Source of the DNA: a virus
Reading direction: 5' to 3' (one strand)
IMG/VR virus record: IMGVR_UViG_3300017738_000046
Location: 1-21,574 of that record
Length of the DNA: 21,574 bases
The notes under the pieces are model-generated. The model searched no databases. It saw nothing but the letters and a program-made list of their open reading frames with translations, and had not been told where the DNA came from. The translations under genes were made by a program, and so were the position numbers. Below are positions 2 through 21,574 of this stretch, one piece after another; position 1 is the stretch's first letter, and the number at the start of each line of letters is the position of its first letter.

Positions 2-1885
2 GAGTTTAAAAGACGTGAAGAAGGGTTTTGGTTCTATAACAAAGGTATTCCTAGTTATGTTACTGGTTCTCATTACATGTACTTGCAGTGGACTAAAATT
101 GATGTCGGACACCCAGAGTTTCGCGAATCCAATAGAATTTTCTTCATTTTCTGGGAGGCCTGTAAACTGGATGAACGCTCATATGGACTGTGCTATCTCA
201 AGAATAGACGATCCGGTTTTTCTTTCATGGCATCTTCAGAGCTTGTACACCAGGCCACTATATCATCAGATTCCAGATATGGTATTTTATCGAAGAGTGG
301 AGCTGATGCGAAGAAGATGTTTACAGACAAGGTTGTACCAATATCCGTTAATTACCCCTTTTTTTTTAGACCAATACAGGACGGTATGGACAGGCCCAAA
401 ACGGAACTTGCCTACAGAGTACCGGCGTCCAAACTTACCCGTAAGAAACTTGATCAGAACGAACGTGCCGAGGAACTCGTCGGGCTTGATACCACGATCG
501 ATTGGAAGAACACCGGGGACAACTCGTACGATGGGGAGAAGCTCAAACTTCTCGCCCACGACGAATCGGGCAAATGGGAGAGGCCGGACAACATCCTCAA
601 TAACTGGAGGGTTACAAAAACAACATTAAGATTAGGTAGTAGAATAATAGGTAGGTGTATGATGGGTTCAACATCAAATGCGTTAGATAAAGGAGGTACT
701 AATTTTAAAAAACTATATGAAGCGTCAGACGTTACAAAAAGAAACAGAAATGGACAGACTAATTCAGGACTATATAGTTTGTTCATACCTATGGAGTGGA
801 ATTACGAGGGATACATCAATACTTATGGATTTCCTGTATTCGAAACTCCGAAAAAAGCGGTTAGAAGTATCGATGGCGGAGAAATTAAAATCGGTGTCAT
901 CTCACATTGGGAAAACGAAGTAGAAGGTTTAAAAAATGACCAAGACGGTTTAAATGAATTTTATCGTCAGTTTCCAAGAACTGAAAAACACGCTTTTAGA
1001 GATGAAGCAAAACAATCTTTATTTAATCTAACTAAGATTTATGAACAAATAGATTATAATGAAGATTTAAGAAATACAAACATCCTTACAAAAGGAAGTT
1101 TTCAATGGGAAAATGGTGTAAAAGATACAAGAGTTATTTTTTTTCCAAACAACAACGGCAGGTTTTTAGTATCTTGGATACCACCTGTTAATTTACAAAA
1201 TAAATATATAATTAAAAATGGTATTAGGTATCCTGGAAATGATCATACTGGTGCTTTTGGCTGCGATAGTTATGATATCTCTGGAACCGTAGATGGTAGA
1301 GGATCTAAAGGAGCTTTGCACGGTTTAACTAAATTTTCTATGGAGGATGTTCCTCCAAATAGTTTTTTCTTAGAATACATAGCTAGACCACAAACAGCTG
1401 AAATATTTTTTGAAGATGTTTTAATGGCTATATCATTTTATGGTATGCCACTACTTGCAGAAAATAACAAACCTAGATTATTATATTATTTAAAAAGAAG
1501 AGGTTACAGAGGTTATTCTATGAATAGACCAGATAAAGTTTATAATAAACTATCTGTTACAGAAAGAGAAATAGGTGGAATACCTAATACAAGTGAAGAT
1601 ATTAAACAAGCACACGCTGCTGCTATTGAAGATTATATTGAAAACTTTGTTGGTTTAATTACTAAAGGTTATGGAGATATGTATTTTCAAAATACATTAG
1701 ATGACTGGGCAAAGTTTAACATAAACAATAGAACTAAGCACGATGCTTCAATAAGTTCTGGTTTAGCTATAATGGCTTGTAATAAAAATAGATACACACC
1801 TCATGCTAAAAGAAATATATCATCAGTTCCTTTAAAGTTTAAGTCGTATGATAACAAAGGATATAATTCAAAAATAATCACATAA
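2..1885 (+). CDS. terL: Terminase large subunit, 5'-truncated by window edge
   Basis: DNA-packaging motor: an N-terminal ATPase drives DNA into the procapsid and a C-terminal RNase H-like nuclease cuts the concatemer. The frame is open to the left edge, giving 627 residues; I estimate roughly 100-150 N-terminal residues are missing. An internal ATG at 77 is not the start, because conserved-looking sequence (FWFYNKGIPSYVTG) precedes it. Visible motifs are a degenerate Walker A-like segment NRRSGFSFMASSE (about 200-240), Walker B LKLLAHDES with the DE pair at 560-565, the coupling motif MMGSTS at about 659-676, and candidate nuclease acids: Asp in GCDSYD (1265-1267), Glu in LAENN (1460-1462) and Asp in KHDAS (1742-1744). 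The sequence resembles crAss-like/marine podovirus terminases as I recall them. The portal ATG follows the TAA directly. GC is about 40-57% up to about 610 and about 30% afterwards, an abrupt break inside the ATPase domain. Confidence 0.93.
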   Translation, partial: EFKRREEGFWFYNKGIPSYVTGSHYMYLQWTKIDVGHPEFRESNRIFFIFWEACKLDERSYGLCYLKNRRSGFSFMASSELVHQATISSDSRYGILSKSGADAKKMFTDKVVPISVNYPFFFRPIQDGMDRPKTELAYRVPASKLTRKKLDQNERAEELVGLDTTIDWKNTGDNSYDGEKLKLLAHDESGKWERPDNILNNWRVTKTTLRLGSRIIGRCMMGSTSNALDKGGTNFKKLYEASDVTKRNRNGQTNSGLYSLFIPMEWNYEGYINTYGFPVFETPKKAVRSIDGGEIKIGVISHWENEVEGLKNDQDGLNEFYRQFPRTEKHAFRDEAKQSLFNLTKIYEQIDYNEDLRNTNILTKGSFQWENGVKDTRVIFFPNNNGRFLVSWIPPVNLQNKYIIKNGIRYPGNDHTGAFGCDSYDISGTVDGRGSKGALHGLTKFSMEDVPPNSFFLEYIARPQTAEIFFEDVLMAISFYGMPLLAENNKPRLLYYLKRRGYRGYSMNRPDKVYNKLSVTEREIGGIPNTSEDIKQAHAAAIEDYIENFVGLITKGYGDMYFQNTLDDWAKFNINNRTKHDASISSGLAIMACNKNRYTPHAKRNISSVPLKFKSYDNKGYNSKIIT

Positions 1886-4300
1886 ATGATTAACATAAAC
1901 TATAACAGCAGCTTTCCAGATCAGGTAGTACCTGAAGCAGAGAAAAGATCTTTAGAATATGGATTAGCTGTTGCACAGGCAATAGAACATGAATGGTTCC
2001 GAAACACAAGTGGACAAAATAGATTTATTAATAATTATCAAAATTTTAATAGATTAAAATTATACGCAAGAGGTGAACAACCAGTTCAAAAATATAAAGA
2101 TGAATTAGCTATTAATGGTGATTTATCTTATTTAAATTTAGACTGGAAACCAGTACCTATATTATCTAAGTTTGTAGATATAGTTGTTAATGGTATGACT
2201 GATAAAGGTTATGAAATAAAATCTTATGCTACGGATCCTTTTGCAGTAAAACAAAGAACTAATTTTGCTACAAACGCTTTAAGTGATATATATAATCAAG
2301 AAATAATACAACAACTACAAACACAGTTAGGCCCTCAACCTGCTTTAGCTGCTTCTGCTTCTCCTGAAACATTACCAGCTAGTGAAGATGAATTAGATCT
2401 TTATATGCAATTAAATTATAAACAAAGCATTGAAATAGCAGAAGAAGAAGTAATAAACAATGTTTTAGATTATAATAAATATGATGAAACAAAAAAAAGA
2501 TTAGCTTATGATCTTACTGTTTTAGGTATAAGTTGTGTTAAAACTAATTTTAATTTATCTGAAGGTATAACTGTAGATTATGTAGACCCAGCTAGTATTT
2601 GTTATTCATATACAACTGATCCTAATTTTGAAGATCTTTATTATGTAGGGGAAGTAAAAAGTATGTCATTATCAGAAGTTAAAAGACAATTTCCTAGTTT
2701 AACCGATAAAGAATTAGAAGAAATACAAAAATTTCCAGGTAGAAACTCTTATACAAATACTTATTGGGGTCAGTCTACACAAGATCAAGTACAAATATTA
2801 TATTTTGAATATAAAACATATCATGATCAAGTATTTAAAATAAAACAAACAGAAAACGGATTAGAAAAAACATTAGAAAAAGATGATACTTTTAATCCAC
2901 CAGAAAGTGATAACTTTAAAAAAGCTTCAAGATCTATAGAAGTTTTATATACAGGCGCAAAAGTGCTAGGGCTAGGTAACAATATGCTTGAGTGGAAACT
3001 TAGTGAAAACATGACTCGACCTAATGCAGACACTACAAAAGTTAATATGAATTATGTTATTTCTGCTCCTCGTATGTATCAGGGTAGAATAGAATCTTTA
3101 GTAAGTAAAACAATAGGTTTTGCTGATATGATTCAATTAACTCATTTAAAATTACAACAAGTATTATCAAGAATGGTACCAGATGGTGTATATGTAGATG
3201 TTGATGGATTAGCAGAGGTTGATCTAGGTAATGGTACTAACTATAATCCATCTGAGGCTCTTAACATGTATTTTCAAACTGGTAGTATTGTTGGTAGATC
3301 ATTAACACAAGATGGTGAATTAAATAGAGGTAAAGTACCTATTCAAGAATTACAGACTTCAAATGGTATGTCAAAAATATCAGCAATGATACAAACATAT
3401 CAATACTACCTACAAATGATACGTGATGTAACCGGTTTAAATGAAGCAAGAGATGGTAGTACGCCTGATAAAAACGCTTTAGTTGGTTTACAAAAACTAG
3501 CAGCAGCAAATTCTAATACAGCAACAAAACATATATTACAATCATTAATGTATATAACAGTTAGAACTTGTGAAAATATAAGTTTAAGAACAGCTGATAT
3601 GTTACAGTTTCCATTAACAAAAGCTTCTTTATTAAATAGTGTTAATACTTTTAATACTAATACTTTAGAAGAAATAGATAAACTTCATATACACGATTTT
3701 GGAATATTTTTAGAATTAGAACCTGATGAAGAAGAAAAAGCTCAACTTGAAAAAAGCATACAAATAGCATTACAAGCAGGTAATATTGGTTTAGAAGATG
3801 CTATAGATATAAGAGAAATTAGCAACATAAAACTTGCTAATCAAATGCTTAAATTAAAACAAACAGAAAAAGAAGAGAAAAAACGAATAGAACAATTACA
3901 AAATATACAAGCTCAAGCAAATGCAAATGCTCAGTCAGCTGAAAAAGCAGCTTTAGCTGATGTTCAAAAAGAACAAGCTATAGCTCAAACTAAAGTTCAA
4001 ATAGAACAGGCTAAATCTCAATTTGAAATAGAAAGAATGGAACAAGAAGCTTTAATTAAAAAACAATTAATGGCTGAAGAGTTTGAATATCAAATGAAAT
4101 TAGCAGAAATGCAAGCACAAGTGCAAAGACAAAAAGAACAATCAATAGAAGATCGTAAAGATGAAAGAGTAAAAATACAAGGTACACAACAAAGTGAACT
4201 TATAAACCAACGACAGAATGATTTATTACCTCAAAATTTTGAATCAGCAGGTAATGATAATTTAGATGGTTTTGGACTAGAGCAATTTGGTCCTAATTAA
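1886..4300 (+). CDS. Portal protein
   Basis: Probable portal protein: the dodecameric ring at the capsid vertex through which DNA enters and leaves, and the docking site for terminase and then the ring proteins. At 804 aa its length fits crAss-like portals, and it sits between terminase and scaffold/capsid genes, the usual place. The ATG begins immediately after the terminase TAA, so the two are probably translationally coupled. The central part (about residues 190-620) is mixed alpha/beta with a long helical stretch near 410-520. From about residue 650 to 770 it is a highly charged Gln/Lys/Glu-rich helix with coiled-coil character (EEKKRIEQLQNIQAQ, EIERMEQEALIKKQ), matching the C-terminal barrel of long P22-type portals. 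The end is an Asn/Gly-rich tail (DGFGLEQFGPN). An Ala/Pro-rich loop at about 148-165 looks unstructured. The role is from resemblance and position; no single diagnostic motif exists for portals. Confidence 0.88.
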   Translation: MININYNSSFPDQVVPEAEKRSLEYGLAVAQAIEHEWFRNTSGQNRFINNYQNFNRLKLYARGEQPVQKYKDELAINGDLSYLNLDWKPVPILSKFVDIVVNGMTDKGYEIKSYATDPFAVKQRTNFATNALSDIYNQEIIQQLQTQLGPQPALAASASPETLPASEDELDLYMQLNYKQSIEIAEEEVINNVLDYNKYDETKKRLAYDLTVLGISCVKTNFNLSEGITVDYVDPASICYSYTTDPNFEDLYYVGEVKSMSLSEVKRQFPSLTDKELEEIQKFPGRNSYTNTYWGQSTQDQVQILYFEYKTYHDQVFKIKQTENGLEKTLEKDDTFNPPESDNFKKASRSIEVLYTGAKVLGLGNNMLEWKLSENMTRPNADTTKVNMNYVISAPRMYQGRIESLVSKTIGFADMIQLTHLKLQQVLSRMVPDGVYVDVDGLAEVDLGNGTNYNPSEALNMYFQTGSIVGRSLTQDGELNRGKVPIQELQTSNGMSKISAMIQTYQYYLQMIRDVTGLNEARDGSTPDKNALVGLQKLAAANSNTATKHILQSLMYITVRTCENISLRTADMLQFPLTKASLLNSVNTFNTNTLEEIDKLHIHDFGIFLELEPDEEEKAQLEKSIQIALQAGNIGLEDAIDIREISNIKLANQMLKLKQTEKEEKKRIEQLQNIQAQANANAQSAEKAALADVQKEQAIAQTKVQIEQAKSQFEIERMEQEALIKKQLMAEEFEYQMKLAEMQAQVQRQKEQSIEDRKDERVKIQGTQQSELINQRQNDLLPQNFESAGNDNLDGFGLEQFGPN

Positions 4301-5599: not shown

Positions 5600-7057
5600 A
5601 TGTCTTTAATACCACAATTTGGTGCGATAGTACCTGCTCCTAATCAGCAGTTACTAGCATCAGCATATTTGGCATTTGATGGTGGAGCAAATGATTTTGC
5701 TCAACAATATTTGCCAGAGTTATACGAACAAGAAGTAGAGCGTTATGGAAACAGAACGTTATCTGGATTCTTGAGAATGGTAGGCGCTGAAATGCCTATG
5801 ACATCAGACCAAGTAATTTGGTCAGAACAAAACAGATTACACATAGCATATGATAACTGTGTTAACGGCCAACAAGCTGCTAACCCAACCATTACTATCC
5901 CTGCTGCTACTGCTCCAGGCGTTACAAGAAACGTAATTAGCCCTGGTCAAACAATAGTAGTAATGGATAATTCTGGTAACGAAGCAAAATGTTATGTATC
6001 TGCAAGTAACACTGGAACAGGTGTTTTAACAGTAGAACCATATTTAACAGCTGGTCTTGGTGCCGCTGTAATGGGTGCAACTGTAAAAATATTTGTATAC
6101 GGTTCAGAATTTCAAAAAGGTGCTTCTACAGTTAATGCTGGCGCTGGTGCTTTAGTTGATGCTCCTGCTGCTCAGCCACAGGTAACTATCACTCCTTCTT
6201 TTACTCAATTTTCTAACTCTCCTATCATTATAAGAAATGTTTATACAATAAACGGATCTGATATGGCTCAAATAGGTTGGGTTGAAGTTGCTACAGAGGA
6301 TGGAACAACGGGTTACTTATGGTACTTAAAAGCGGAGTCTGAAACAAGATTACGTTTTGAAGACTACTTAGAAATGATATGTGTTGAAGGTGAGTTAACA
6401 GCTGCTGGTTCAGGTGTTTCTGCTCTTGGTACAGGTCTAGGTGGTACTCAAGGTTTATTCGCTGCTATCACAGCTAGAGGTAACGTAGAGATTGGTTTCT
6501 CTGGTGCTTCTGGTATAGATGACTTTGATGAAATTCTTAAAAACTTAGATACTCAAGGAGCTATAGAAGAAAACATGCTTTTCTTAAATAGATCTACTTC
6601 TCTAGAGTTTGATAACATGCTTTCAAATGTTTCTTACGGAGCACAAGGAGGTACAGCTTATGGCTTGTTTGAAAATTCTGAAGAAATGGCATTAAATCTT
6701 GGATTTAGTGGTTTCCGAAGAGGATCTTACGATTTTTATAAGACTGACTGGAAATACTTAAATGACGCTTCTACTAGAGGTGCTCAAACAGGTATCTCTT
6801 CAATTGAAGGTGTTTTAGTTCCTGCTGGAACTTCAACAGTTTATGACCAAATTCTAGGAACAAACATCAGACGACCATTCTTACACGTTAGATATAGAGC
6901 TTCTCAAACAGAAGACAGACGTATGAAGTCTTGGTTAACTGGTTCTGCAGGTGGTGCTTACACTTCAAATCTTGATGCTATGGAAGTAAACTTCCTATCT
7001 GAAAGATGTTTAGTTACACAAGCTGCTAACAACTTTGTTTTATTCCAAGGAATTTAA
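5600..7057 (+). CDS. Major capsid protein, HK97-fold type
   Basis: Probable major capsid protein forming the icosahedral shell. The 485-aa length, the position after the scaffold-like gene, and the N-terminal text (LIPQFGAIVPAPNQQ, then AFDGGANDFAQQYLPELYEQ) resemble crAss-like phage capsid proteins as I recall them. The order is a helical N-terminal arm (about 1-80), an Ala/Gly/Val-rich beta insertion (about 95-195), then the core with FLRMVGAEMPM near 55-65, a long helix (RLRFEDYLEMICVEGEL) near 250-266, and a C-terminal portion ending in VTQAANNFVLFQGI. The HK97 fold is assumed from the family, not visible directly. Synonymous choice is a little richer in C-ending codons (AAC, TTC, TAC) than in neighbours, as expected for the most highly expressed gene. 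A hairpin follows the stop within 11 bases. The start follows TAAATT with no Shine-Dalgarno. Confidence 0.88.
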   Translation: MSLIPQFGAIVPAPNQQLLASAYLAFDGGANDFAQQYLPELYEQEVERYGNRTLSGFLRMVGAEMPMTSDQVIWSEQNRLHIAYDNCVNGQQAANPTITIPAATAPGVTRNVISPGQTIVVMDNSGNEAKCYVSASNTGTGVLTVEPYLTAGLGAAVMGATVKIFVYGSEFQKGASTVNAGAGALVDAPAAQPQVTITPSFTQFSNSPIIIRNVYTINGSDMAQIGWVEVATEDGTTGYLWYLKAESETRLRFEDYLEMICVEGELTAAGSGVSALGTGLGGTQGLFAAITARGNVEIGFSGASGIDDFDEILKNLDTQGAIEENMLFLNRSTSLEFDNMLSNVSYGAQGGTAYGLFENSEEMALNLGFSGFRRGSYDFYKTDWKYLNDASTRGAQTGISSIEGVLVPAGTSTVYDQILGTNIRRPFLHVRYRASQTEDRRMKSWLTGSAGGAYTSNLDAMEVNFLSERCLVTQAANNFVLFQGI

Positions 7058-15411: not shown

Positions 15412-16884
15412 ATGGCAGCAACTATAGAAGTTAAATACTTTAACAGCTTTGTACTGAGAAAAACATTAGACTCTTCTGGAGCAGCCGCTTGGAATGGCTC
15501 TAAAGGAGATGGTACATATCCTGCTATATCACCTAATAACGCAAATGCTAAAAACTGGGCTATAGAAGAATCACGCATTAGAGGTGGTTATAATAACACT
15601 AGTACTGGTTATGGTGTAAAAGCTTATTTAGTAGAAGATAATCCACAAGGATCTGTTAGAATTAATTCTATGATATACTCTGGTATATTTAACTCTAGAA
15701 CAGGTATAAATGATACTAATGTATTTTCCGTAGGTGATGATATAATTAAAAGTGTAGACCCTGCAAATGGCTCTATACAGAAGCTATATGCTGAAGATAA
15801 CTATTTAAATATATTTCAAGAGAAAAAAGTAAGTAGAGCACCTATAGATAAAGATATAATATATTCAGCAGAAGGTAGTCCTACTATTACCGCAAGTACA
15901 TCTGTTATAGGTAACATACAGGCTTATGTAGGTAATTATGGTATTAGTAGAAATCCTGAAAGCTTTGCTTCGTATGGTAATAGAAGATATTTTACTGACA
16001 AAGATAGAAATGCTGTAATGAGGTTATCACAAGATGGTCTTACAGAAATATCTAACTATGGTATGATTGATTTCTTTAGAGATCAGTTTGGTGCTATGGG
16101 TGAAGGTAAACTTACTGGCGGTTGGGATATATACAACAAACAATATGTATTATCAATACAACCTCAAGATACTAGCATTGCTTATAAAACATTATCTTTT
16201 GATGAATCAGTAAATGGTTGGACTAGTTTATATTCTTATAAACCTGGTTTAATGCTTAGTTTAAAAAATAAGTTTTATACTATGGGACCATCTGATACTA
16301 CAGATACAGATACAGCTGGTTTATATCAACACTATATTACATCACAACCAAGATGTAATTTTTATGGTGTACAAAATAAAGCTAGTATAAATTTTGTATT
16401 TAACCCTAATGTAAGTTTATCAAAAGTATTTAAAACAATTAATTACGAGGGTAGTAATGGTTGGCAAGTAGATAGTTTTGTATCTGATCAAACAGGTATA
16501 GGTTATCCTAATATTGATTTTAGTAATTATGAAACAGTAAACACTGATGATTCGACGGTATCTATATATAGTTATAACGAAGGATCATTTGATAATTACG
16601 GTAACTTATTTATAAACCCTCAAAATAGTCCTATAACACAAAATACTACACCACTAATACCACCTGTAAATCATGCCGGTTTTACTAGAAAAGAAAATAA
16701 ATATATGGCTAATCTTGTTAATAATAGTCCTGCAGCTCCAGGTGAAGTAGTATTTGGTGCTGATATGACTGGTATTAAAGGTTACTTTGCTACTGTCACT
16801 ATATCTACTGATACTTTAACAGATCCAGGAGGTATGAAAGAACTGTTTGCGGCATCGTCAGATTATGTAGAATCAGCTTATTAA
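15412..16884 (+). CDS. Tail structural protein, probable C-terminal muzzle component
   Basis: A 490-aa beta-rich protein with Tyr/Gly/Asn repeats such as those of propeller-like tail proteins. Distinctive segments are ESRIRGGYNNTSTGYGVKAY (about 53-72), GIFNSRTGINDTNVFSVGDD (about 90-110), AVMRLSQDGLTEISNYGMID near 200-219 and GGWDIYNKQYVLSIQ near 236-250. I associate this combination with structural proteins of marine and crAss-like podoviruses, often encoded as the distal part of the large muzzle protein. Here it is a separate gene with its own ATG in the TAAATTATG context, 33 bases after the 1805-aa gene and in a different frame. The C-terminal 60 residues (ADMTGIKGYFATVTISTDT) form a short beta domain. 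Whether it is one subunit with its upstream neighbour or a separate protein cannot be decided from sequence alone. Confidence 0.7.
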   Translation: MAATIEVKYFNSFVLRKTLDSSGAAAWNGSKGDGTYPAISPNNANAKNWAIEESRIRGGYNNTSTGYGVKAYLVEDNPQGSVRINSMIYSGIFNSRTGINDTNVFSVGDDIIKSVDPANGSIQKLYAEDNYLNIFQEKKVSRAPIDKDIIYSAEGSPTITASTSVIGNIQAYVGNYGISRNPESFASYGNRRYFTDKDRNAVMRLSQDGLTEISNYGMIDFFRDQFGAMGEGKLTGGWDIYNKQYVLSIQPQDTSIAYKTLSFDESVNGWTSLYSYKPGLMLSLKNKFYTMGPSDTTDTDTAGLYQHYITSQPRCNFYGVQNKASINFVFNPNVSLSKVFKTINYEGSNGWQVDSFVSDQTGIGYPNIDFSNYETVNTDDSTVSIYSYNEGSFDNYGNLFINPQNSPITQNTTPLIPPVNHAGFTRKENKYMANLVNNSPAAPGEVVFGADMTGIKGYFATVTISTDTLTDPGGMKELFAASSDYVESAY

Positions 16885-17299: not shown

Positions 17300-18046
17300 A
17301 TGGGAGTAGTAACAGCAATAGCAGCAGGTGCAGGGCTTATAGCTAGTGGTAGGGCATCAAAAAAAGCAGAAAGAGCAGCAAATAAAGCAGGGCGTAGGGC
17401 TCAGAAAGAAACCGATAGATTAAACGCTAAATTACAACAATTAGAAAGAAATAGACAAGAAGTTATTAATCCTTATGAAAGTGTAACAGATCTTTCTGGA
17501 ATGATTAGTGATACTTCTAATTTATTATCTAATCCATATGCTAGTTTAGGTGTGTCTACTGCTGCGGCTGAAGTTCAAGCAGAAGAAGCTGATATAGCTT
17601 TAGCAAATACATTAGATTTATTAGCATCTACAGGTGCATCAGCAGGTGGTGCAACAGCTTTAGCACAGGCGGCTTTATCTAGTAAAAGAGGTATTTCTAC
17701 TAGCATACAACAACAAGAAGCAGCTAACGCACAATTAAGGGCTCAAGGTGAATCTAATTTACAAGCAATGAAACAAGCTGAGGCTATTAGAGTTCAGGGT
17801 GCTAAATTAGGTGAAGCTAAAAGACAACAAGAAGTAGACGTTGCTGGAAAAGAATTTGTGTTTGGACAACAAGAACAAAGAGAAACTGCAGCTTTAAATA
17901 GAACAGCAGCTCAACTTCAAGGGGCTAAACAACGACAAGTTCAAGCTGATTCAGATAAAGTTGGTGTTTTAGGAGCTAGAGCAAGTAGCATAGGTAATAT
18001 AACTGGTTCAGTTATAGGTGCAATTGGAGCTGGAGGAGGAGGATAA
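17300..18046 (+). CDS. Probable internal virion protein, helical (T7 gp14-like in style)
   Basis: A 248-aa Ala/Gln-rich, almost wholly helical protein. It opens with a small hydrophobic Gly/Ala segment (GVVTAIAAGAGLIAS, residues 2-16) that could insert in a membrane. A basic helix (ASKKAERAANKAGRRAQKET) and a coiled-coil-like stretch to about 56 follow. After a short linker (NPYESVTDLSGMI) comes another helical region rich in Ala/Gln to about 215, and a Gly-rich hydrophobic end (GSVIGAIGAGGGG). This composition and the place after the tail genes are typical of small internal virion or ejection proteins that help form the DNA conduit through the cell envelope, as T7 gp14 does. No homology to gp14 itself is claimed. 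The start is one base after the GNAT stop, without a Shine-Dalgarno. Confidence 0.6.
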   Translation: MGVVTAIAAGAGLIASGRASKKAERAANKAGRRAQKETDRLNAKLQQLERNRQEVINPYESVTDLSGMISDTSNLLSNPYASLGVSTAAAEVQAEEADIALANTLDLLASTGASAGGATALAQAALSSKRGISTSIQQQEAANAQLRAQGESNLQAMKQAEAIRVQGAKLGEAKRQQEVDVAGKEFVFGQQEQRETAALNRTAAQLQGAKQRQVQADSDKVGVLGARASSIGNITGSVIGAIGAGGGG

Positions 18047-18072: not shown

Positions 18073-19632
18073 ATGGCAAAAGGATTTTCAGGAGGCACCA
18101 ATTATGGTGTTGGTCAAGGTGCTTATTACGAAGGGCTTGACGCAAAAGTTGTAGACACTAGGTCGGGTGCTATGTGGCGTGACGCTATAACAAGTATTGG
18201 TGAAGCTACTAGTAATGTTATAGATAAACAGGCTGAAAATATTTCAAGGAAAAGAAAAAGAGCGCAAGAGTTAATGGATAGAACTATGAAATATACATTA
18301 GAAGAAACAGCTAGAGTATATGATAATCTTCAAAAACAAGGAGTAAACAATCCTAGTATATATGCTAATGTTGATAAATTATTACCTGATAGATTTACTT
18401 ATTTTCGTCAAGCCGCTGACGCTGACACGCCTGAAGAACAAAAAGCAGCTTTAGATAACTTAGCTAAAACTACAAAACAATTAACTAGTTTATCTTCATT
18501 AATATCTCAAGGGACTGAATCTACTGATTTATTTAATAAAGATGTACAAAGCGGTAATTTATTAGGCCAAGGAACTCTTAATTTATCTGGAGAAAAAAAT
18601 ACTCAATGGGCTAAAATGATGAATATAAGAAGTGGCTATAATGAAGGAACAGAAGAGTGGGGAATTGATGAAGATGGAGAGTGGACAGTAACTTATAATG
18701 GCCCTGAACTTGATGGTCCTGTTACAGAAAAAGCAGCTTTGTTTTTTGGATATGATCCTGGAACTATACCCGAAGTAGATAAGTTTTTTACTGAACTTTA
18801 TCAAGAAATAGGTGCTACAAATAAAAATAATGAACCTACTGATAAGTTTTTAAATACCAGAAACGTTTTACAAGCTACTAATGATAAGAATTTTAGTCAA
18901 GTAGCATATAATGTTAAAATGGGTGCTTTAGCTACTGCAACTGCATCACAAATAGGTGCTTATGCAAAGTCAATAGCACATAGTTTACCAGACGCAGAAG
19001 CTGTTTGGGATAATGTTTTACCTGAAAGTATAAAAAGAGAAGTTGCTAAAACATATGGTGTAGAAGATTATGAAGATTTAAAACCTGGATCAGGTAGTGG
19101 ATATGGTCAATTAGATAAAATATCAGGTGAAATGCTTGTAAGAGCAACTCAACTTTATGGAGAAACACGTATGCCAAAACAACGATTAGGCGCTTTAGTT
19201 AAAAATGTTCAACCCCCAGCGGCATCTAAAGCAATGATTGATGAAATGAAAAGGACTCAAGACTGGCAAGTTTTTAAACAAGACTTTGATTTAAAAGCAA
19301 GCCAATTTGGTATTGGTGTAAATGAAGAAGGTGTTTATACGGGCGAAATAGATATTGATGCTGATAATTTTGCTGAAGCATTAAATACTATAGGTTTTAA
19401 AATTATTGGAGATAAAGAAAACAAAGGTACTGATAACAATTATTTTATAGGTCTTGAAGTAGAATCAGCTAATGGTAAAAAAGTAACAATAAGAGACGAA
19501 GAAAATGCGCAAGATTTTGTAGCTAAACTATTAAGATCTATGGGCGCAACATATGGTGAGGGTGCTGGACCAACTGGTGGATATCAATACAATAAAACAG
19601 CTAAAGATCTTTTATCTAAATATTCTAATTAA
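18073..19632 (+). CDS. Probable internal virion / cargo protein
   Basis: A 519-aa protein of no recognised family. It opens with a Gly/Tyr-rich segment (GFSGGTNYGVGQGAYYEGLD). A helical region from about 35 to 160 follows (WRDAITSIGEATSNVIDKQ, then RKRKRAQELMDRTM), including a basic cluster. A beta-containing middle near 190-225 has EEWGIDEDGEWTVTYNGPEL. The second half is mainly helical with acidic loops and ends in YGEGAGPTGGYQYNKTAKD. There is no signal peptide or transmembrane helix. The position between the small helical virion protein and a very large protein with a protease motif resembles the block of ejected or cargo proteins in podoviruses; this is inference from context. The start is preceded by an A-rich tract (AAAAAATAAATAAAAA) and no Shine-Dalgarno. 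The next gene begins 11 bases after its stop. Confidence 0.6.
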   Translation: MAKGFSGGTNYGVGQGAYYEGLDAKVVDTRSGAMWRDAITSIGEATSNVIDKQAENISRKRKRAQELMDRTMKYTLEETARVYDNLQKQGVNNPSIYANVDKLLPDRFTYFRQAADADTPEEQKAALDNLAKTTKQLTSLSSLISQGTESTDLFNKDVQSGNLLGQGTLNLSGEKNTQWAKMMNIRSGYNEGTEEWGIDEDGEWTVTYNGPELDGPVTEKAALFFGYDPGTIPEVDKFFTELYQEIGATNKNNEPTDKFLNTRNVLQATNDKNFSQVAYNVKMGALATATASQIGAYAKSIAHSLPDAEAVWDNVLPESIKREVAKTYGVEDYEDLKPGSGSGYGQLDKISGEMLVRATQLYGETRMPKQRLGALVKNVQPPAASKAMIDEMKRTQDWQVFKQDFDLKASQFGIGVNEEGVYTGEIDIDADNFAEALNTIGFKIIGDKENKGTDNNYFIGLEVESANGKKVTIRDEENAQDFVAKLLRSMGATYGEGAGPTGGYQYNKTAKDLLSKYSN

Positions 19633-19643
19633 AATTATATAAC

Positions 19644-21574
19644 ATGGAAGAATTAGAAGTCATAGTTCAACGTATGATGGACGCTGGTGAACCAGAGGAT
19701 AACATTAGAATGGTAATAGAGGAGTTTAATAAAGGTCAAGAGGTAAAGACATCGACCACAACTCCGGATGCGGTTGTGGAAGGAGTAGAGATAGCATCCC
19801 CCGCTCCTTCAAAATCTTTGGATACGAGTTCAGTTTCACAAAGATTACAAGATAATCCAGATGATGTTTCTGCTGTAATAACTTCTTTAAAAAATGCTTG
19901 GAATAAATCTAAAATGGAAGCTTCTAGGCTTGGTGAATTTTGGCAGTTAGGAGATAGTGATAATGAAACCACAGATATAGCATCATCTATGCTCGCTAAT
20001 GCTATATTTGGTTCTGATGAAATTGAAGAATATATTAAAAAATATGGTAAAGATAGTTTTGTTGCTGCGGGTTTAGGAAAAGAAGAATTATTAGAAAGTA
20101 TAAAAGGAAGAAAAAAACAAAAACAAGAAGATTCTTTAGATACTGAAACTTTAGAAGTTATAGAAAGTTTTAAAAATGGAGATATAATAAAAGGAGTAGG
20201 TGCTGTAGGGAGTGCTATTGTAGGAGCGTTAGGTTCAGCTGCTTATGGTATTGGAACGCTTGGCGCTGGATATTTTATGGACTTCGCGGCTGATAATTTT
20301 ATAGAATTTAATGAAGGTCTTGCAAAACGAAAAGGTGTTTCTTTAGAAGAATTAATATTAAATGATGAAGCTAATACTGTTACACCAACTAGTGTTGCTT
20401 ATTTTCAAGCTTTAGCAGAAACTTTTGGTCTAGTTAAAACTGTAAAAGCTTCTGGTGTTGGTAGAAATTTAAGTAAATATATTGCTGGAAAAGCAATGAA
20501 AAGTGCTACTGGAAAAGCTGTATCTAATTTAGTTGGAGCAGGTGTAGCAGAAGGTTCTACTGAAATATTTCAATATGGAGCCGAGCAATATAATAATAAG
20601 TTAGGAGAAACAGGAAATCAACTTGATGCAGGTAAAGAATTTTTTAATTCTATGTTTTCTCAGCAAGGGTTAGAGCAAGGTTTACAAGGGGCTTTTGGTG
20701 GGGCTGGATTAGCTTCTCCAAGTTTAATAAATACAAGTTTTAAAACTAGAACCCCAACAGACTATAATTCTATAAATAAAGACTTAGAAGAACTAAATGT
20801 TCTTAATAAAAAATATAATCTTTCAAGATCTAAAGTTGTAAAAGAAGGTATACAACAAGATATTGATAGAATTAAAAACAATATTAAAGAAAGAGTTGAA
20901 AAAAATAATGATATTGTAAATAATTTATCGCCTGAACAAATTAGAGAAATAGATAATTTAGGAGATTTAGCCGAGACACAAGTACAAAAAGTAAAAGAAT
21001 TAAATGATCAATTAGAAAGAGGAGATATAGATCAAAAACAATACACATCTGCTTTAAAAGGTTTTAATGCAACATACCAAGATGCTAAGAATAGAATACA
21101 AAAAATAGCTTTAGAAAAAGATATTAAATTTGCTAAAGAAGGTGCAGAAAAATTAGGTATAGAAGTACAAGTATTAGATACTGAAAATAATCCTGAAGAT
21201 CAAAAAATTATAGATGAAACTTTTGTAGATAAAAAAGGTAAAAAAGTAAGTGGTGTAGAAGGTGCATATAGTCCAAAAGATAATAAAATATATATAGACA
21301 AAGTAGAAGCTGCTAAAAAAGAAAAAGTAACAGTAGGTAGCCATGAATTATTACATGGTATATTAGCTAACGCCGCTAAAATAGATAATAAAATACTTGA
21401 AGACTTTAAAAAAGAACTATCAACTGATCAAATAAATATAATTAATAAAAAGCTTACAGACAACTACGATGCTAATTATATAAAAAATAATCCAGATGAA
21501 TTTATAACACAGTTTTCTGATGCAATAGCCGCTAATGAAATAAGTTTTAATGAAAATTTATTTACTAAACTAGG
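19644..21574 (+). CDS. Large virion-associated protein with zinc-metallopeptidase motif (3'-truncated)
   Basis: An open frame from the ATG at 19644 to the window edge, 643 residues so far, with no stop. It opens with a short helix pair (MEELEVIVQRMMDAGEPEDN), then a Thr/Pro/Ser linker (about 33-65). Next comes a helical region, a Gly/Ala-rich hydrophobic segment (about 179-216; AVGSAIVGALGSAAYGIG) and a second such region (about 285-370; AGVAEGSTEIFQYGAEQ and GLEQGLQGAFGGAGL). Such segments are common in large phage proteins ejected with DNA. A charged coiled-coil-like stretch covers about 372-500. From 502 the pattern fits a zincin: beta strand GAYSPKDNKIYID (about 540-552), then HELLH at 567-571 and a candidate third ligand E619 in NPDEFITQF. 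Together this suggests an injected polyvalent virion protein carrying a metallopeptidase, perhaps acting on peptidoglycan or host protein. The C-terminal rest is outside the window. Confidence 0.75.
   Translation, partial: MEELEVIVQRMMDAGEPEDNIRMVIEEFNKGQEVKTSTTTPDAVVEGVEIASPAPSKSLDTSSVSQRLQDNPDDVSAVITSLKNAWNKSKMEASRLGEFWQLGDSDNETTDIASSMLANAIFGSDEIEEYIKKYGKDSFVAAGLGKEELLESIKGRKKQKQEDSLDTETLEVIESFKNGDIIKGVGAVGSAIVGALGSAAYGIGTLGAGYFMDFAADNFIEFNEGLAKRKGVSLEELILNDEANTVTPTSVAYFQALAETFGLVKTVKASGVGRNLSKYIAGKAMKSATGKAVSNLVGAGVAEGSTEIFQYGAEQYNNKLGETGNQLDAGKEFFNSMFSQQGLEQGLQGAFGGAGLASPSLINTSFKTRTPTDYNSINKDLEELNVLNKKYNLSRSKVVKEGIQQDIDRIKNNIKERVEKNNDIVNNLSPEQIREIDNLGDLAETQVQKVKELNDQLERGDIDQKQYTSALKGFNATYQDAKNRIQKIALEKDIKFAKEGAEKLGIEVQVLDTENNPEDQKIIDETFVDKKGKKVSGVEGAYSPKDNKIYIDKVEAAKKEKVTVGSHELLHGILANAAKIDNKILEDFKKELSTDQINIINKKLTDNYDANYIKNNPDEFITQFSDAIAANEISFNENLFTKL

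Follow-up and report, generated by a model that had tools for sequence, protein, structure and literature searches.

The 21,574-base virus record analysed here (the window) ends within a reading frame in which a sequence-only reading had noted the motif HELLH and had proposed an ejected virion protein with a metallopeptidase domain. The locus raises the question of what kind of protein this frame encodes, whether the motif belongs to a genuine zincin, and what such a domain might do in a protein of this type. The frame starts with an ATG at position 19644 of the plus strand and continues for 643 codons to 21572, with no stop before the contig end; it represents the 5' part of a giant modular gene.

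The giant gene and its genomic setting

The window holds a podovirus-type virion module whose genes are all read in one direction: terminase, portal and a structural protein in the position of the capsid protein are followed by other virion proteins and by small genes, with the zincin ORF at the end. The first gene of the module, cut at the window start, encodes the terminase large subunit (2-1885, plus strand like all window features given below; phrog_6681, E 1.3e-151) and is followed by the genes for the portal protein (1886-4300; phrog_6547, E 1.2e-145; P22_portal, E 1.8e-7) and for the virion structural protein in the capsid-protein position (5600-7057; phrog_13704, E 5.7e-87, and relatives). 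The genes ahead of the giant were traced in 61 non-redundant loci with more than 4 kb of upstream sequence. Relatives of 15412-16884 precede the giant in 52 of these loci and relatives of 17300-18046, which shows a weak match to an internal virion protein family (phrog_805, E 0.043), in 31; those of the gene immediately upstream of the giant (18073-19632) were detected in 8. A small gene at 16891-17298 matches phrog_17252, a family with no function assigned in PHROGs, and has relatives before the giant in 20/61 loci; MW202828 has at this place a gene annotated as an N-terminal acetyltransferase subunit.

A search with the entire fragment found a single relative, L002, in which the same upstream genes precede the giant. 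Its complete giant gene (L002:8984-15313) encodes 2109 aa, about three times the part visible in the window; residue numbers of L002 are counted from the preceding stop and are three higher than in P0002. DNA identity between the two is 86.8% from nt 21112 onwards (blastn piece 21112-21574) and 43-46% before. Pfam and PHROGs scans of the giants of the window and of L002 gave no clear family.

Proteins related to the portal or the capsid-position protein of the window occur in elemovirus, the Cellulophaga phages phi18:3 and phi38:1, Maribacter phage Panino, MW202828 and Tenacibaculum phage Gundel_1, and the virus of the window is a podovirus related to flavobacterial phages. All six carry a counterpart giant adjoining the same virion module, and in five of the six compared the giant gene ends this module; gp74 of Gundel_1 (2482 aa, with HEFGH by eye) precedes terminase and portal. 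A structural annotation is attached to four of the six, namely phi18:3 gp123 (virion protein, its annotation bearing an MS/MS note), phi38:1 gp101 (assigned as structural by similarity), the elemovirus giant and Gundel_1 gp74; the giants of Panino and MW202828 bear other names. An HExxH motif is present in the elemovirus and MW202828 giants and absent from those of phi38:1, phi18:3 and Panino, and the gene position thus does not need one. The counterparts differ from the giants studied here in that those of phi18:3, phi38:1, elemovirus, MW202828 and Panino match neither the zincin nor the C-terminal profile at E<=1; blastp without composition correction gave weak local matches, and Gundel_1 showed a weak C-terminal match (E 4e-3).

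It is by way of these counterparts in other phages that the earlier claim of a virion protein is upheld: by analogy, the giant encoded at 19644-21572 is probably, and in our estimation with considerable confidence, a virion protein. Judging from podovirus ejection proteins and the N4 virion RNA polymerase, it is also likely, if somewhat less surely so, to be ejected into the cell. The Gly/Ala-rich hydrophobic stretch that the sequence-only reading had associated with ejection is present at aa 184-211 (20193-20276), as read from translation and sequence.

The zincin domain and its predicted metal site

The motif HELLH occupies aa 567-571 (nt 21342-21356). The 643-aa translation contains no histidine other than H567 and H571, and from its composition 0.0006 HExxH motifs would be expected. 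By comparison with the zincin family, these histidines would be zinc ligands and E568 the catalytic residue. The edge-strand pattern described ahead of the motif, GAYSPKDNKIYID (aa 540-552, nt 21261-21299), covers a predicted beta-hairpin: two strands of the L002 model, E60-63 and E68-72, fall on window aa 540-543 and 548-552 in an ungapped mapping of the model's secondary structure. HELLH itself sits in model helix 84-97. Residue 619 (nt 21498-21500), the suggested third ligand, is indeed a glutamate; it maps to E139 in model helix 138-149, and conservation together with this helix points to a role in metal binding. Blastn against L002, a gapped codon comparison, the alignment and the model place the zincin domain from aa ~491 to past the contig end (21114-21572).

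With the zincin domain alone as query, 13 loci were found, which include the L002 contig once more. A first set of relatives was assembled by a profile search, from which the best 80 of 148 relatives were taken; removal of 14 of 95 loci (same-contig repeats and near-copies) left 81 loci, and after 16 of these with at least 90% identity had been set aside, 65 remained as non-redundant at <90% identity. In a search of a genome collection, 1/80 matched stretches was a relative, located in a Sphingobacteriales MAG. H567, E568, H571 and E619 are invariant across the 81 loci (65/65 non-redundant). For part of the matches the search pattern demanded HE..LH, yet 15 of the 65 non-redundant relatives lie outside this pattern and still carry the motif; E619 was in no search pattern.

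A second set was chosen by the C-terminal domain of the giants and regardless of the motif; 3 of 80 were dropped as already present in the first set and 4 of the other 77 for lack of a complete 5' end, which left 73 giants. Fifty of these match the zincin profile, and the same four residues are found in all 44 non-redundant giants that do so, a result that is only partly independent because the profile itself favours the motif. Ahead of the C-terminal domain, HExxH occurs in 65 of the 73 giants, HExxxH in one, EELFH in six and QEVGH in one. A class of giants devoid of a zincin, considered for the 23/73 that do not match the profile, was mostly rejected as in 15 of them an HExxH occurs at another place ahead of the C-terminal domain; the remaining ones carry HExxxH, EELFH or QEVGH. 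A zincin domain is probably present in every giant, sometimes minus one ligand, and its motif varies between HELLH, HEIGH, HEYFH and HEVLH. The HExxxH motif is HEMVGH in L159, and the altered first ligand is seen as EELFH in L109, L110, L117, L120, L126 and L170 and as QEVGH in L148; such variants lend themselves to functional comparison.

Loss of a ligand in the six EELFH giants and the QEVGH giant would be in keeping with a zincin fold that is mainly structural, serving in packaging or channel building with catalysis dispensable. In five of them (L117, L120, L126, L148, L170) the domain still aligns, with the altered motif falling on the position of the zincin site. The N4 virion RNA polymerase offers a precedent: according to the passages on N4 in Iyer et al. 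2017 (PMC5512222), this zincin-bearing ejected giant requires its zincin region for encapsidation and is packaged unprocessed, and the passages on the C1 domain in the N4 structure preprint (PMC12633501) name its HExxH motif and give no protease result. However, the ligands and the catalytic glutamate are invariant in 65/65 relatives of the first set and in 44/44 profile-matching giants of the second, which is more than a scaffold should need, and a mainly structural role is in our opinion unlikely.

The fold was examined with a model of the full L002 zincin domain (66 alignment rows; pLDDT 87.9, pTM 0.82). In a Foldseek comparison with the PDB no match was significant (best E 0.41), and the top 14 matches are all of zincin fold, comprising 8 entries of lethal factor, 2 of Certhrax, 1 of IrrE and 3 of selecase/jannalysin. 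The Certhrax domain is zincin-like, but not a peptidase. The VIA search placed lethal factor on top (Z 6.5, rmsd 4.4, 152 residues), followed by PPEP, Certhrax and IrrE, with the antirestriction protein ArdC at Z 3.6 and a few unrelated or merely HExxH-bearing chains ranking lower. Among viral models the best match is a protein of an uncultured virus (E 4.2e-6, TM 0.70), and polyvalent proteins, a structural protein of Cellulophaga phage phi14:2 and a virion RNA polymerase follow further down the list.

At the level of sequence families the matches of the zincin were weak. When the 66 zincin domains were scanned singly, Pfam M78 was matched in three, HNOB in six and ATLF, the lethal-factor family, in two (best E 0.014); in PHROGs, phrog_1233 (function not assigned) was matched in ten (best E 2.4e-4) and the metallo-protease family phrog_87 in two (best E 3.6e-4). 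The zincin sequence profile retrieved nothing relevant from the PDB, with no lethal-factor or PPEP chain at E<=10, and the likeness to lethal factor and PPEP would be one of fold only. Invariant ligands and a confident model whose nearest neighbours, at weak scores, are zincin folds nevertheless bear out the earlier reading, and the domain almost certainly has the fold and metal site of a zincin. From the order of the elements and the fold alignment, H567, H571 and E619 very likely converge on one metal in the predicted structure. That the domain is an active peptidase is a reasonable expectation, which we hold with less confidence than the fold.

A zincin within a probable ejection protein might also open the cell envelope on entry, as the sequence-only reading had considered. 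To our knowledge, zincins of a lethal-factor-like shape cleave proteins and not murein, and a possible M15-type murein peptidase gene, recognised by eye, lies elsewhere (L002:16643-17008). No observation made here hints at the envelope as target, and we regard envelope opening as very improbable. This M15-type peptidase-like gene is situated shortly downstream of the giant and might encode an endolysin.

Modular architecture and exchange of parts

In complete relatives the usual order is a variable N part, the zincin, a sigma-70 region-2-like module, an exchangeable cargo slot and a constant C-terminal domain; two or more unrelated modules per chain (zincin, sigma-region-2-like, cargo) are thus seen in these relatives, and the window ends before the latter two. 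Zincin and C-terminal domain (~670 aa) are found together in 57/58 ORFs that are complete in their locus. Among 44 non-redundant giants of the first set, the N part measures 268-1075 aa and the slot, from zincin to C-terminal domain, 664-1676 aa. The C-terminal domain aligns in 1892/1892 pairs and the slot over a mean of 20% of its length. PDB and Pfam searches with the C-terminal domain, whose alignment left out 23 of 57 rows, found no relative; a search of IMG/VR gave at least 592 matching stretches, a number that is not deduplicated.

The sigma-like module falls beyond the end of the window and is known from the relatives. With an iterative profile, a method that can drift, a helix pair was detected shortly past the zincin in 59/81 loci of the first set and 49/77 of the second; in L002 it spans aa 778-861 (L002:11306-11557). 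The first six PDB entries retrieved by the module profile (29 of 59 alignment rows left out) are all sigma factors, the best at E 0.0011. In the list from a smaller, earlier profile, one sigma factor ranked first (E 0.0029) ahead of unrelated chains. The model of the module is modest (pLDDT 76.6, pTM 0.60), and by title sigma factors account for 14 of 17 Foldseek matches (best E 0.76) and 23 of 28 VIA entries (best Z 5.4). Pfam Sigma70_r2 was matched in one giant only, at E 0.063. Profile and model comparisons suggest that the helix pair is a relative of sigma-70 region 2, and we treat it as a candidate module.

Comparisons between individual giants show where parts have been replaced. L041 and L044 share 92-99% aa identity everywhere but at aa 1101-1440 (L041 numbering), where identity is 31%, and between L002 and L044 identity is 96-97% over the whole stretch from aa 736 onwards, with the slot, and 23-50% in N part and zincin. 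Exchange therefore hits both the N part with the zincin and the cargo slot. The block by which the otherwise near-identical L041 and L044 differ is a different cargo, and the break begins at a K-[FY]-S motif. Between the window and L002, the proteins show a sharp border at aa ~491-500, with 20-23% aa identity in the N part against 80-92% in the zincin.

Exchange of this kind would suit a zincin that is itself an injected effector, cutting a host protein (a defence, transcription or envelope factor) and co-delivered with other effectors. Such attack on the host is one option named in the zincin passages of Iyer et al. 2017 (PMC5512222), and an exchanged domain that varies in sequence and motif is what differing host targets would lead one to expect; the identity border between window and L002 and the independence of the border motif from an intact zincin (see below) point in the same direction. 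On the other hand, an HExxH-like motif is constant before the C-terminal domain (73/73 giants picked regardless of motif), while recognisable cargo comes and goes, and we consider an effector role somewhat unlikely, if less so than a structural one.

The recognisable cargo is diverse. Matches of zeta-toxin/AAA type were found in 3/44 slots, a HAD-like DFDDT pattern in 16/44 (for example in L035, L038, L045, L075 and L087) and a weak match to LPD22 in 1/44. The HAD-like label rests on the DxDxT-type pattern and on matches to DUF2608 (4/44 slots), a family presumably linked to HAD; a profile of this cargo (12 of 16 alignment rows left out) did not retrieve a HAD structure from the PDB. A further lead is PD-(D/E)XK-like cargo, noted by eye in L002 and by pattern in L018, L058, L060 and L101. 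The giants thereby give a list of cargo that Bacteroidota phages may deliver on entry.

The border motif and the possible role of the zincin

A short motif, K-[FY]-S-[KRLVIM] with K or R as its first letter, recurs after the zincin, at the inner border of the slot and before the C-terminal domain. The 44 giants of the first set contain 79 copies compared with 26.6 in shuffles, whereas 161 control ORFs elsewhere in these loci (stop-to-stop frames of at least 250 aa from either strand, not all of which may be genes) contain 9 compared with 14.6. Per 1000 aa, its density is 16.5 immediately ahead of the C-terminal domain, 5.7 immediately behind the zincin and 0.47 elsewhere. No tripeptide of the slot is more over-represented than KFS, with 77 occurrences in 32/44 proteins against an expectation of 13.5. 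Since copies at one and the same border may be inherited, only interior copies were tested against homology breakpoints: 23 copies in 20 representatives had a mean of 3.57 nearby alignment ends, compared with 0.69 for random positions and 0.72 for control motifs, and 0 of 2000 random draws reached a value as high. An earlier run on 44 giants had given 7.46 vs 1.84. In the second set the motif is enriched before the C-terminal domain (9.4 per 1000 aa, 12/44 proteins); the copy after the zincin was not replicated there (1/44). The protein of the window ends before the first site and contains no KFS-type motif, and the narrow motif is absent from the giants with other zincins (elemovirus, MW202828, Gundel_1). 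A shared DNA recombination word is disfavoured as the origin of the motif because the serine codons of 38 KFSK copies are mixed (AGY 23, TCN 15).

We propose, tentatively and short of calling it likely, though as the most probable of the roles considered, that the zincin chiefly processes the giant, and the same strength applies to the explanation as a whole. Packaged in the virion and entering the host cell with the DNA, the giant would be cut by its zincin, as the main job of this domain, at the module borders, and cleavage would free the sigma-like and cargo modules. Processing is favoured by the constant presence of the zincin, its place ahead of the exchangeable slot and the sharp module borders; against it speak the N4 giant, which is packaged uncut, and the retention of KFS in giants with no intact zincin. 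Five of the seven giants with a replaced first zinc ligand still carry a KFS-type motif, and 7/44 giants with an intact zincin do not. The former number speaks against KFSK as the zincin's own cut site, and the motif may be unrelated to the zincin. E568 and the candidate cut sites provide concrete handles on the processing-versus-attack role of zincins in ejected phage proteins.

The giants resemble the polyvalent proteins in several respects covered by the passages of Iyer et al. 2017 (PMC5512222) that deal with them: both unite a number of unrelated modules in a single giant chain, are encoded with virion genes, and have an HExxH zincin with a glutamate on the second helix, variable cargo and an inferred delivery with the DNA. 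For the polyvalent zincin, autoprocessing or attack on the host had been suggested there. The giants studied here differ in the lack of a clear Pfam or PHROGs match for zincin and C-terminal domain, in the sigma-70 region-2-like module behind the zincin (the term 'sigma factor' has 0 occurrences in the main text of that paper) and in the recurrent KFS border motif, the cleavage passages of Iyer et al. naming no site. A literature search brought up neither a motif of this kind nor a sigma-like part described for these giants, and the passages obtained from PMC8776804, PMC13288928, PMC7077304, PMC7824862 and PMC7886860 contain nothing on the giant protein. On sequence grounds, the giant appears to fit a polyvalent-type virion protein, yet one of its own family, with no clear Pfam or PHROGs match and a sigma-like neighbour in most loci. 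The giants make up a large set: the members scanned lack a clear Pfam or PHROGs model, yet share one constant layout of zincin, swappable cargo and, often, a sigma-like module.

The N4 virion RNA polymerase of the Schitoviridae is likewise an ejected podovirus giant, of ~3,500 aa, whose C1 domain holds HExxH and whose extensive C-terminal part has no recognised relatives, as far as the corresponding passages of PMC12633501 go. It differs in carrying an RNA polymerase where the giants here have a sigma-like fragment beside the zincin; a Pfam match to RNA polymerase was absent from L002 (E<=1), from eight further giants, some of them cut (E<=0.1), and from the 44 slots (E<=0.01).

A zincin-type domain in a large protein is also shared, by weak structural matches, with the crAss-like giants BFVD A0A345MT41, entitled 'Putative RNAP associated protein fused to zincin protease', and phi14:2 S0A053. 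A further trait that the crAss-like phages share with those considered here is the host group, Bacteroidota. The likeness to these giants is confined to structural matches (E 0.89 and 0.11), unlike that of the window's portal and capsid-position proteins, which match elemovirus, the Cellulophaga phages, Panino and MW202828.

A bolder version of the processing scheme would make the giant a virion-delivered polyprotein for transcriptional takeover, in which the zincin would cut at K-F-S-K borders, the sigma-like part would bind the host RNA polymerase and the cargo would disarm the host. We judge this version quite improbable; if true, it would be a counterpart of the N4 and crAss-like virion RNA polymerases in which a sigma-type fragment and a protease replace the polymerase.

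One giant of the collection has a different ending: the ORF at L020:8486-11473 stops at 996 codons, ahead of any C-terminal domain, and might be a split or frameshifted gene.
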